A DNA stretch of 64,000 nt from Cryptosporangium minutisporangium (GTDB taxonomy: Bacteria; Actinomycetota; Actinomycetes; Mycobacteriales; Cryptosporangiaceae): positions 127,169 to 191,168 of the forward strand of contig NZ_BAAAYN010000044.1 in NCBI RefSeq assembly GCF_039536245.1. The letters run 5' to 3'. Numbering within the stretch: the stretch's first letter is position 1; each line of letters begins with the position of its first letter. The translations under genes were made by a program, and so were the position numbers. The notes under the pieces are model-generated. The model was not told the origin of the DNA. It was given only the letters and a program-made list of their open reading frames with translations, and did not search any database. Below are positions 36,831 to 46,772 of this stretch, piece by piece.

Positions 36831-37112
36831 TCAGTCGTCGATCGCGAAGGACAGGCAGGTGATGCCGCTGACGTCGAGCCGCGTGGCGCCGGGGGTGCTC
36901 ACCAGGCTCATCAACGTGGCGCCGCACCCGCGACAGCGCATCACCAGGCCGGGACCGCCCAGGTAGACCCGGGTGTCGGCGAGCATCGACATCCGCCCGC
37001 ACGCCGTGCACTGGCCGCGCACGGTGGTCGGCTCGACCGCGAGGAGCTCCTGCAGCGGACCTGCGGCGGCGTTGCCGTCGACGTAGGCGTAATCCTCTTC
37101 CGGGATGTCCAC
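36831..37112 (-). CDS. DUF6510 zinc-ribbon protein
   Basis: The 93-aa protein has two CxxC pairs (GQCTACG and MRCRGCG) that form a zinc ribbon, preceded by YVDGNAAAGPLQELLAVEPT, as in the actinobacterial DUF6510 family. DUF6510 genes often stand near redox flavoproteins; none is adjacent here. Function is unknown. Confidence 0.82.
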   Translation of the reverse strand: MDIPEEDYAYVDGNAAAGPLQELLAVEPTTVRGQCTACGRMSMLADTRVYLGGPGLVMRCRGCGATLMSLVSTPGATRLDVSGITCLSFAIDD

Positions 37113-37151
37113 GGGCTCATCCTCCCCCGTCGGGCAGCCGCCGGGCAGAGA

Positions 37152-38231
37152 TCACGGGACTGAATCCGGGTCCGTGTCCTCGGCCGGCCTGGGTAGCGCC
37201 CGACGCCGGCTCAGCAGCACGGCGATCGCCGGAGCCAGCAACAGCATCACGATCACCCGCAGCACTTGAACGGTGAGGACCAGCGTGGTGTCGGCTCCGG
37301 TGCTGGTGGCCGTGGCGAGGACGGCGTAGAGGCCACCCGGCGTGGTGGCGAGGTAGGCGTCGAGCGGTGAGGCGCCGGCCAGGCGCAGCAGCGGGATACC
37401 GACCGCGGCGGTCGCGACGATGAGCGCAACGACCAGGCCGAGCGCGAGCGGAAGCACGCGTCGCACCGAGCGCAGGCTCTCGCGGGTGAACGAGAGCCCG
37501 ACCTGCAAACCGATGAGCGCGTACGCGACCTGCTCGATCGCCGCCGGCACGGTGGCACCCTGCGAGACGCCGGTGGCGGTCAGGACCGCCGAGATCAGCA
37601 TCGGACCGAGCAGCGCCACGGCCGGAACCTTCGGCAGGTACCTGGCGAGTGGGAGCCCGACAACGGCACACCCGGCGGTCACCAACAGGTCGACGACGAG
37701 CGGAGCGTCCCCGCCGGTGGGCGCGGTTCCGGTGCCGCCACCGCCGGGGAGCGCGGTGGCCACCGCTGGCATCGCGACCACGATCACCAACACCCGCAGG
37801 TACTGGACCACCTCGACGACGCGCTGGTCGGCTCCGAGTTCGTGGCTGATCGCCGTGAGGCCGGACGCGCCGCCGGCAACCAGGGCGAACGAGCCGGTAA
37901 CCGGGTCGAGGTCGCGGTGCAGGCCGAGTAGGACGCCGACGAGCAGGCTGAGTACGAGCGTCGCGAGGGTGGCGGCGAGGACGACCAGCCAGTCGCTGGC
38001 CAGTGCTCCGATCGCGCTCGGTTGAACCAGCGCCCCGATCAGGACGCCGATGCAGGCCTGGCCGAGGCGGGTCGCGATCAGCGGCAGCTTGTAGGGCGGT
38101 TGGTCCGTCTTCCGGATCGAGACCAGCACGCCGACCAAAAGAGCGGCGAAGAGCGTCGCGGACGGGAGCCCGAGGGCGGTGAACCCGAACGCAACGAGCG
38201 CGACCGCAGCGGCGATCAGGAACCAGGCCAT
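37152..38231 (-). CDS. AbrB-family membrane transporter
   Basis: The 359-aa protein has about ten hydrophobic helices in two internally similar halves, with the conserved GGASGLTAISHELGAD near 125 and its counterpart ATTPGGLYAVLATATSTGAD near 300. This is the AbrB/putative ammonia-monooxygenase family of transporters. The substrate is unknown. It starts at ATG 38231, divergent from the possible leader RNA and methyltransferase. Confidence 0.87.
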   Translation of the reverse strand: MAWFLIAAAVALVAFGFTALGLPSATLFAALLVGVLVSIRKTDQPPYKLPLIATRLGQACIGVLIGALVQPSAIGALASDWLVVLAATLATLVLSLLVGVLLGLHRDLDPVTGSFALVAGGASGLTAISHELGADQRVVEVVQYLRVLVIVVAMPAVATALPGGGGTGTAPTGGDAPLVVDLLVTAGCAVVGLPLARYLPKVPAVALLGPMLISAVLTATGVSQGATVPAAIEQVAYALIGLQVGLSFTRESLRSVRRVLPLALGLVVALIVATAAVGIPLLRLAGASPLDAYLATTPGGLYAVLATATSTGADTTLVLTVQVLRVIVMLLLAPAIAVLLSRRRALPRPAEDTDPDSVP

Positions 38232-38302
38232 TGGGTCTCAGCGTAAGCAGCGGCGGATCCCGGGCTCGGGTGGGAATGAAAGGGCGGGGTAGCGCCTTCT
38301 AC

Positions 38303-38427
38303 TGGGTGCCGGTTCGGTCCATGCCCCCGGGCCTCACCTTCGCCGCTGCGAGCGGCCACTCGCCGAGAGGCGGCTGCCGGGCCGGCACCTAACTTCTCCG
38401 GGCGCGCGTAGATCGCGCCCCATTTTT
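38303..38427 (+). ncRNA. Candidate structured leader RNA with intrinsic terminator
   Basis: On the plus strand GGTGCCGG (38305-38312) pairs with CCGGCACC (38382-38389), enclosing three hairpins: GGTCC/GGGCC (38316-38333), GCCGC/GCGGC (38342-38356) and CGCC-GAGA-GGCG (38361-38372). Ten bases after the junction, GGGCGCG/CGCGCCC (38400-38420) is followed by CATTTTT, a typical intrinsic terminator. No plus-strand gene lies upstream, and the methyltransferase starts 55 bp later. A riboswitch-like attenuator or a short stable RNA would explain this. No known family was recognised. Confidence 0.45.
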
Positions 38428-38482
38428 GTGCCCAGCCTCGCCGACGTCTGCGGCCGCGCAAGGTTCGGTAGGGTCCCCGGTC

Positions 38483-39142
38483 GTGACCGAGCCCCATGTG
38501 GTCCGCGCCGCCTACGACTCGATCGCCGTCGACTACGCCGAACACTTCGGCGACGAGCTCGTCGGCAGTCCGCTCGATCGGGCGTTCCTGACCGCGTTCG
38601 CCGAGTTGGTCCGCACCGACCCATCGCCCGCTCCGACCGCGAGGCTGGTGGCGGACGTCGGCTGCGGGCCGGGCTTGCGAACCGCTTTCCTCCACGACCT
38701 CGGCCTCAGCACCATCGGCATCGACCTGTCGCCGCAGATGATCACGGTCGCCCGACAGCGCCACCCCGAGCTGTCGTTCGAGGTCGGCTCCATGCTCGAC
38801 CTCCCGCTGGACACGGCGTCCGTGCACGGGCTCGCCGCGATGTACTCGCTCATCCACATCCCGGACGAGCACCTTCCCGTCGCCATCGCCGAGTTCGCCC
38901 GGGTTCTGGTCCCCGGCGGGCACGCGCTGGTGATCTTCCAGACCGACGCCGAGACACGGCACCTCGCCGAGGCGTTCGGCAAGCCGCTCGGCCTGGACTA
39001 CCTCCGGCACCCCGTCGAGCGCATCGCGGGCCTGCTGCACGCCCACGGCCTGCCCGTCCATACCCGCATGCGGCGCGAGCCCGACGAGACGATGACCGCC
39101 CCGTACGCGTACCTGCTCGCCCGAAAGACCTCGGAAGCCTAG
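38483..39142 (+). CDS. SAM-dependent class I methyltransferase
   Basis: The 219-aa protein has motif I VADVGCGPGLRTAF near 55-68, an acidic strand IGIDLSPQMI, and motif IV-like HGLAAMYSLIHIP, all characteristic of small-molecule methyltransferases (Methyltransf_11/25). The GTG at 38483 (MTEPHVVRAAYDSIAVDYAE) is chosen because the family start (AYDxxAxxYAE) follows at once. The substrate is unknown. It may be controlled by the upstream RNA structure. Confidence 0.85.
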   Translation: MTEPHVVRAAYDSIAVDYAEHFGDELVGSPLDRAFLTAFAELVRTDPSPAPTARLVADVGCGPGLRTAFLHDLGLSTIGIDLSPQMITVARQRHPELSFEVGSMLDLPLDTASVHGLAAMYSLIHIPDEHLPVAIAEFARVLVPGGHALVIFQTDAETRHLAEAFGKPLGLDYLRHPVERIAGLLHAHGLPVHTRMRREPDETMTAPYAYLLARKTSEA

Positions 39143-39147
39143 AGCGT

Positions 39148-39996
39148 ATGGACAGTGCGGTCCGGCAGTACCTCGACGACCTGATCGTGGCGGCGCGGAG
39201 CGTTCTCGGTGAGAACCTGGTCGGTGCCTACGCGGCCGGATCGCTGGCGCTGGACGCTTACCAACCGGGTCGCAGCGACATCGACGTGGCGTTGGTCGTC
39301 GAGGACGCAGTGCCGACGGCGCGGAAACGAGCGCTGGTCACCGCACTCCGGCACGAGAACCTCGCCTGCCCGGCGAGGGGCCTCGAACTGGTCGTCTACC
39401 GGAGTGCGGCGGTGCGATCGGGGACGGTGGAACCTGGCTTCGAGGTCGAGTTGAACACCGGCGCTCGGATGGAGTTCCGCGAGACCTACGACCCGGACGA
39501 GCGGCCGGCTGCGGACGGCCGGTTCTGGTACGCCCTCGATCGGAGCATCCTGCACCAGTCCGGACGGGCGCTCCTCGGCCCGCCCGCCGACGAGATGTTC
39601 GCCGACCTCGCGCCGGCCGACCTGCGATTCCTGCTCATCGAGGCGCTGAGCTGGTGGCTAGCGCTCCCGACCCCGGACGGCGACGCCCCGGCTCCCGGCG
39701 CCGAGGACGCCGTCCTCGGTGCGTGTCGCTCCCTCGCGAAACACCGGCACGGCCGTTGGCTCGCGAAGACCGACGCCGGCCGGCGGATCGCGTCCACCGG
39801 CCCGGCGTCCACTGGCCCGGCATCGGCCGACCCGGCGTCACCCGGCCGGGCGTGGCCCGGCGCTGCGTCCGGTGTGATCGAACGGTCGATCGCGGCCCGC
39901 GCCGGGGGAACTCCTCCATCCGGGCCGGAGGCCCGGGCGTTCCAACGGTGGGTCATCGACGAAATTCGTCGAGGACATCCAGGTAGTGCTGGTTGA
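39148..39996 (+). CDS. Aminoglycoside-adenylyltransferase-like nucleotidyltransferase
   Basis: The 282-aa protein has the Pol-beta nucleotidyltransferase motif GSLALDAYQPGRSDIDVALV (31-50) with metal ligands Asp44 and Asp46, and a C-terminal helical domain with EALSWWLALP and RSLAKHRHGRWLAKTDAGRR, as in ANT(3'')/ANT(9) enzymes. Resistance function is not established. An insertion of about 30 residues rich in TGPAS/ADPAS repeats (about 215-245) interrupts the C-terminal domain. It starts 5 bp after the methyltransferase stop and overlaps the convergent VOC gene by 44 bp. Confidence 0.82.
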   Translation: MDSAVRQYLDDLIVAARSVLGENLVGAYAAGSLALDAYQPGRSDIDVALVVEDAVPTARKRALVTALRHENLACPARGLELVVYRSAAVRSGTVEPGFEVELNTGARMEFRETYDPDERPAADGRFWYALDRSILHQSGRALLGPPADEMFADLAPADLRFLLIEALSWWLALPTPDGDAPAPGAEDAVLGACRSLAKHRHGRWLAKTDAGRRIASTGPASTGPASADPASPGRAWPGAASGVIERSIAARAGGTPPSGPEARAFQRWVIDEIRRGHPGSAG

Positions 39997-46701: not shown

Positions 46702-46772
46702 AGCGGGTGACGGGAATCGAACCCGCACTGTCAGCTTGGGAAGCTGATGTTCTGCCATTGAACTACACCCGC
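46702..46772 (-). tRNA. tRNA-Gly(CCC)
   Basis: The minus strand folds as a 71-nt cloverleaf. The acceptor stem is GCGGGTG (46766-46772) with CACCCGC (46703-46709) and discriminator U. The anticodon stem TCAGC/GCTGA encloses the loop TTCCCAA, giving anticodon CCC, and the T arm contains GGTTCGATTCC. The CCA end is not encoded. It reads glycine GGG codons. Confidence 0.95.

Follow-up and report, generated by a model that had tools for sequence, protein, structure and literature searches.

A 64,000-nucleotide stretch of the Cryptosporangium minutisporangium genome, referred to here as the window, very probably carries a free-standing gene for a small non-coding RNA (sRNA) at positions 38272–38427 of its plus strand. 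Judging from sequence alignments, the core of this RNA (38303–38392) is a covarying three-way junction consisting of a closing helix, two hairpins, and a conserved C-rich joining strand. A free-standing RNA gene is the best reading because the core is accompanied by promoter and terminator signals, because its copies occur in independent gene contexts, and because their spread is broad. A first-pass annotation of the window had proposed either a regulated attenuator or a small RNA; the signals belonging to the element itself and the varied contexts support the second half of that proposal, whereas gene order and strand speak against the first.

The 125-nucleotide (nt) stretch 38303–38427 folds better on the plus strand than all 200 of its shuffled versions (z = −3.47), whereas on the minus strand the z-score is −1.20 and 20 of 200 shuffles fold equally well. 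The 8-bp closing stem that the first-pass annotation had described, GGTGCCGG paired with CCGGCACC (38305–38312 with 38382–38389), is exact and extends to arms at 38305–38317 and 38377–38389 that are 85% complementary. In the consensus, this closing helix, P1, has 11 pairs, with a 5′ strand at 38305–38315 (its end set by hand from the alignment) and a 3′ strand at 38379–38389 supported by covariation. Two of the three hairpins proposed earlier inside the junction were recovered as well and are supported by the alignment, namely P2 (38342–38356, GCCGC-TGCGA-GCGGC) and P3 (38361–38372, CGCC-GAGA-GGCG, with a GNRA-type tetraloop). The first of the three was not; in its place the consensus has the unpaired C-rich joining strand CCCCCGGGCCTCA (38324–38336), a candidate pairing or binding site. 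The minimum-energy fold of the single sequence forms the closing stem and P2 and lacks P3.

Covariation was assessed in two alignments. The first, A1, holds 31 of 40 distinct DNA matches, leaving out six chance-like ones (loci L033 and L035–L039), two of a second structural type, type II (L032), and one that is truncated (L024). The second, A2, was built from the window and 89 of 163 loci and holds 92 matches, 91 of them distinct; L022 and L023 are not among its sources. Fifty-seven of the 92 A2 rows are finds of a sequence pattern. Because this pattern prescribes the C-rich strand and large parts of P2 and P3, the invariance of these parts in A2 is partly by construction; P1 is left free by the pattern. 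For A1, RNAalifold gave the closing helix and the two hairpins, with compensatory change at 11 of 20 pairs. In A2, 96.2% of 1801 cells are standard pairs, compared with 81.1% in shuffled alignments, and only 35–47% of cells pair when the helices are slid. The covariation score was reached by none of 500 shuffles, which ignore relatedness and were compared with an alignment fitted to the model.

P1 allows a cleaner check. In A2, 93.2% of the P1 cells are paired; among the 57 copies found with the pattern that ignores P1, 574 of 622 cells pair, and the remaining 35 rows give 363 of 383. Both across A2 and within those 57 copies, double changes occur at all 11 P1 pairs. A lack of conservation or covariation of the stems in relatives, which the first-pass annotation had named as the outcome that would count against the element, was looked for in this way, and the structure held.

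One P2 pair is changed on both sides in 22 sequences, 21 of which have U-A, and 86 of the 88 type I copies have a P2 pentaloop that reads YNNGA, though P2 is partly pattern-fixed in 57 of the 92 rows. A GNRA-type tetraloop caps P3 in all 92 rows (GAGA 73, GUGA 12, GCGA 7), and the 35 rows obtained outside the pattern have GAGA in 30, GUGA in 3, and GCGA in 2; the P3 motif GCCGNGAGGC occurs in 29 of the 31 A1 copies. The C-rich motif, CCCC[CG]GG...CA, is likewise found in 29 of the 31 A1 copies, which are DNA-similarity finds, and in 92 of 92 A2 copies, though 57 of these came from the pattern requiring it. Across A2, there are 123 G-U/U-G cells and 14 A-C/C-A cells, which identifies the plus strand as the RNA, since the G-U cells would be mismatches on the minus strand. 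In the type II form (L074–L081 and L032), a longer second hairpin replaces P2; this form occurs in Streptomyces-like and other genomes, and in several Streptomyces-like genomes it coexists with type I.

When 61 genomes were searched at the DNA level, 36 had a match, weak chance-like ones included. The strong matches centre on window positions 38305–38389, that is, on the closed element, and several genomes have more than one. A first covariance model found copies in 31 of 396 genomes of the phylum, all of which were the own genome or belonged to the same order or class. With the 92-copy covariance model, copies were found in 195 of 296 genomes of the class, representing 74 of 115 genera, and in 71 of 121 genomes of one family; listed genomes mostly have one or two copies, with a maximum of five. 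A pattern scan over one genome per species (84,980 species) gave at least 120 matches, all with actinobacterial titles where listed, and the matches listed include Streptomyces, Kitasatospora, Microbacterium, Arthrobacter, Nocardia, Gordonia, and Nocardioides. The negative control, Escherichia coli, gave no match across 28 billion bases.

The window core scores 96.1 bits with model R1 and 86.6 bits with model R2. Two copies are present in its own genome (86.6 and 71.8 bits), where no other place scores above 22.2 bits. Each of the other three genus genomes likewise has two copies, and one weak extra place among them scores 23.6 bits. The second own-genome copy (L027 2980–3069, corresponding to G000:C89:20479–20568, minus strand) has a divergent neighbour from an uncharacterised gene family, whose members are also found beside Micrococcales-type and Nocardioides copies; this second copy is perhaps the older locus. 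At L021 (1619–1877), two full copies of the RNA stand in tandem in one genome.

Plasmids carry copies too: 104 places in 71 plasmid records from Rhodococcus and Gordonia match, and in 42 of these records the match extends over at least 80% of the query. In ten plasmid regions with annotation, the covariance model recovers the RNA every time, weakly so in L231 (34.8 bits); an eleventh region has no annotation. Four of the ten regions have a DNA ligase gene close by. An SOS-response peptidase gene and Lsr2 are each close by in three regions, and mIHF and WhiB each in a single region. Copies near LigD or DNA-ligase genes (L041, L043, L225, and L228) are on different plasmids.

Upstream of the window core are a −35-like box, GGGAAT (38272–38277), of the type recognized by extracytoplasmic function (ECF) sigma factors of the sigma R/sigma H type, and a −10-like CTT (38296–38298), 18 bases past GGAAT. 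Both are invariant in the four aligned genus genomes. For the family as a whole, 90 of the 92 upstream regions were counted, one being too short and one a duplicate. The ECF-type element GGAAY-N17-19-GTT precedes 42 of these 90 copies, compared with 0.08% of 18,000 random positions from the same loci, and GGAAY alone is in place upstream of 47, compared with 1.5% of random positions. At 46 of the 90 copies a TANNNT box occupies the expected position, compared with 1%, and TTGAC with a matching −10 box occurs in nine. In an earlier count, in which GTT starts 7–13 bases before the core, the motif was found anywhere in 24 of 9200 shuffles.

Downstream of the core, the first-pass annotation had placed an intrinsic terminator at 38400–38420, followed by CATTTTT. 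A terminator scan of 37100–39400 found it again, as two overlapping sites both at 38400–38420, compared with a shuffle mean of 0.4, and with its tail the GC hairpin spans 38400–38427. Hairpins of −26 kcal/mol or below lie downstream of 41 of 90 copies, compared with 24 of 180 random control pieces (90 of the 92 downstream regions, after removal of duplicate, short, or N-bearing pieces). An intrinsic terminator of its own, which is expected of an sRNA gene, is present in the window, and such hairpins are enriched across copies.

Under the interpretation that we favour, RNA polymerase (RNAP) carrying an ECF sigma factor of the sigma R/sigma H type would transcribe the gene, the promoter-like element would start the RNA at the core, and the terminator would end it after roughly 90–125 nt. 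The RNA would then serve as a trans-acting regulator, either of the stress response or global in reach; its most likely mode of action would be pairing of the CCCC[CG]GG...CA strand with G-rich mRNA regions where ribosomes bind. It would have no leader action on the neighbouring methyltransferase gene. The motif and its spacing make control by a stress sigma factor probable in many lineages, and less so for the window copy. In other actinobacteria, factors of this type respond to thiol-oxidative stress and to some antibiotics. Actinomycetes are not known to have Hfq. Action by base pairing through the C-rich strand has about an even chance; the idea draws on the conservation of this strand and on analogy with other C-rich sRNAs, whose presumed mode of action is set out in passages of PMC3765725 and PMC8388888. 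The varied contexts count in its favour, and plasmid copies, some of them near Lsr2, mIHF, or WhiB genes, are what one would expect of a regulator acting in trans. For the explanation as a whole, that is, a free-standing, stress-sigma-driven, trans-acting RNA, we estimate a probability of roughly 0.5.

Several observations weigh against this explanation. The full ECF motif is lacking at 48 of the 90 copies, several of which are of the TTGAC/TANNNT type. The window copy itself has CTT in place of GTT at −10 and is among the nine of 90 copies that fail all three promoter tests; the arrangement GGGAAT-N18-CTT, common to this copy and three relatives, fits in its −35 box and spacing and lacks the GTT. 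The terminator hairpin is kept in the three relatives with another loop and no clear T run, and an obvious terminator is not present at every copy. L022 and L023 are the two of the 31 A1 copies that break the C-rich motif. Three of the four genus genomes (the window genome, G002, and G003) do have a methyltransferase gene downstream of the RNA and in the same orientation. Finally, the transcript itself is a prediction from sequence, and its targets or partners are hypothetical.

A free-standing RNA gene whose product binds protein, either as an RNAP-associated RNA like Ms1 or 6S RNA or as a scaffold or sponge, is a possibility nearly as likely as pairing. Such a role would fit the rigid fold and the conservation of the GNRA-type and YNNGA loops and of the joining strand, all of them partly pattern-fixed. 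A precedent may be the approximately 85-nt Streptomyces coelicolor RNA scr0792, described as RNAP-bound in passages of PMC11077062, although its kinship with the present family is conjectural. It would also fit that 24 of the 92 copies adjoin one uncharacterised gene family, in differing orientations, although a protein partner is at this point only conjectural. Also counting against this role, the Streptomyces homologue of Ms1, scr3559, is, judging by its name, encoded at another locus. The neighbouring gene family (L061, L013, L027, and 21 other copies) encodes proteins of about 200 amino acids with a motif like LPGALWxLYxLR and is found in both orientations; the two members tested had no Pfam or NCBIfam match. 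This family is a possible partner of the RNA.

The surroundings of the window copy bear on a different alternative, namely that the element controls the methyltransferase gene in cis from within its leader, as an attenuator or riboswitch, a reading that we regard as improbable. The core is flanked by an AbrB-family gene (PF05145; 37152–38231, minus strand, hence divergent from the RNA element) and by the methyltransferase gene (PF13649); gene neighbours were called with a simple open reading frame finder. In agreement with the first-pass annotation, no plus-strand gene is seen just upstream, and the GTG start of the methyltransferase gene is at 38483, 55 bases past 38427. The placement of a same-strand terminator 55 bp before this GTG, together with the same-strand methyltransferase gene downstream in the window, G002, and G003, is what a leader would predict. 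However, although a methyltransferase gene is near the RNA in all four genus genomes, the arrangement varies: its start lies about 90 nt past the core in the window, about 480 nt in G003, and about 1480 nt in G002, where an opposite-strand gene stands between the two, and in G001 the gene is about 2.8 kb upstream of the RNA. Both window neighbours are retained in G002 and G003.

Elsewhere, the downstream genes vary, which also disfavours a methyltransferase leader. Across the 92 copies, a downstream gene was called in 76 cases: 45 of these genes share the strand of the RNA and 31 lie on the opposite one. In eight of the ten annotated plasmid regions the next listed downstream gene is on the opposite strand. 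Eleven of the 92 copies precede a PhoU-like gene (the one member tested matched below the cut-off), and seven, in Streptomyces/Kitasatospora-type genomes, are beside a HelD-like gene, for a cut-off fragment of which the best NCBIfam matches were HelR/HelD, below curated cut-offs. The constant place before related same-strand genes that marks a riboswitch or attenuator was not found among these copies.

It is also improbable that the RNA, instead of pairing with targets, senses a ligand and terminates itself, as an orphan riboswitch or riboregulator. The idea comes from Arthrobacter-type copies, in which the closing stem leads directly into a T run (L044 and L061: ...CGGCACCATTTTTATG), so folding and termination could be coupled; the lack of a consistent downstream gene stands against it. 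In these copies (L044 3982–4076 and L061), the closing stem is directly followed by ATTTTTATG, and the core itself could be the terminator. Their promoters are of the type TTGACT with TAGAAC or TAGAAG.

A repeat acting at the DNA level with no RNA function, such as a repetitive extragenic palindrome, a miniature inverted-repeat transposable element, or the end of an insertion sequence, is very unlikely. It would account for the dispersed copies, some of them in tandem pairs, for the plasmid copies, and for two loci at which small inserts are flanked by partial direct duplications, but not for the low copy number per genome, the asymmetry between G-U and A-C cells, or a promoter and terminator in register with the core; moreover, transposase genes are near only two of the ten annotated plasmid regions. 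An origin as a phage element was also considered and rejected: unannotated “Bacteriophage sp.” records number two with the L013 copy, one with the L005 copy, and none with the L043 copy, and there is one viral contig, on which the neighbour belongs to the same bacterial gene family. Least credible of all is that the minus strand is the functional one, as the leader of the AbrB-family transporter gene, a suggestion of the first-pass annotation that fits the divergent position of that gene and is disfavoured by the fold z-scores, by the G-U and A-C counts, and by promoter and terminator signals that point to the plus strand.

At the two loci with partial duplications, one in G002 and the other on plasmid pLRE138, about 0.6–0.9 kb of DNA with one opposite-strand gene separates an intact copy from a downstream stretch that repeats the 3′ part of the RNA gene in direct orientation. 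The duplicate spans the second base of P2 through the terminator and has the same start at both loci. The coordinates are L024 2084–2180 and 3034–3127 for G002 (97 nt at 92.8% identity) and L229 1793–1922 and 2500–2631 for pLRE138 (132 nt at 88.6%). Transfer RNA (tRNA) genes serve as insertion sites, and it looks as if this RNA gene has been used in the same manner, given the same start at two unrelated loci, though two cases are no proof.

That the element belongs to no known family, as noted in the first-pass annotation, holds for the stretches scanned against Rfam 15. At the gathering threshold, the whole window gave only a tRNA gene elsewhere (46702–46772, minus strand), and scans of 12 of 40 and 12 of 74 loci gave only tRNAs. 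Sub-threshold scans of window positions 38100–38600 and of L054 1200–1900 gave nothing convincing, the best score being 29.5 bits for Thr_leader (cut-off 55), mostly on the terminator. The open-licence literature searched, part of it as passages, contained no recognisable description of the family, nor of its class-wide breadth, its two types, its promoter element, or its plasmid copies. Sequence fragments searched as text in papers gave three papers, with titles on human, mouse, and plant work.

If confirmed, the family would be a structured sRNA retained by roughly two of every three sampled genomes in one class of actinobacteria, a group with many antibiotic producers, important pathogens, and few well-understood sRNAs. 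The promoter element would connect the RNA, in several orders, with the stress response governed by sigma R/sigma H, and its presence on large plasmids suggests that a host regulator is also encoded by the plasmids themselves. With its depth, the alignment offers predictions for structure probing, deletion, and target capture, and it would warrant an entry of its own in Rfam. As a more tentative picture, the RNA might be a core global sRNA of Actinomycetes, outside Rfam, often run by a thiol- and antibiotic-stress sigma factor and borne by large Rhodococcus and Gordonia plasmids close to genes for the nucleoid proteins Lsr2 and mIHF and for WhiB; it would be an RNA counterpart of these host regulators, and its gene maybe an insertion site.

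Among known sRNAs, the S. coelicolor RNA scr2952 invites comparison. According to passages of PMC8388888, it is conserved in over half of the Streptomyces tested, and its name follows SCO2952, a HelD gene (passages of PMC8655204); the Streptomyces/Kitasatospora copies described here are also beside a HelD-like gene. The Streptomyces member of the family may be scr2952, a lead given by the shared neighbourhood and the name, not by sequence or coordinates. However, PMC8388888 states that scr2952 is in Rfam, whereas five Streptomyces-like loci gave no Rfam match at threshold here, so the two may be different RNAs. Four Rfam accessions that were checked are Scr6925, Scr6106, Scr4115, and Scr1601, not scr2952.

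6C RNA is likewise actinobacterial and is defined, in passages of PMC8388888, by C-rich unpaired bases. It has two C-rich hairpin loops, whereas the present RNA has one C-rich joining strand in a three-way junction, and no Rfam match to 6C was obtained in the stretches scanned. With Ms1 and 6S RNA, which are regulators of RNAP, the likeness is that of widespread bacterial sRNAs, a link of the present RNA to RNAP being conjectural. The size of the RNA is similar to that of scr0792, to which we liken it from the description in PMC11077062 and not from sequence. A further parallel is with the SigR regulon, for which passages of PMC9205884 give the promoter consensus GGAAT-N18-19-GTT: the element before 42 of the 90 copies closely matches this consensus, and the window copy differs from it by its CTT at −10.
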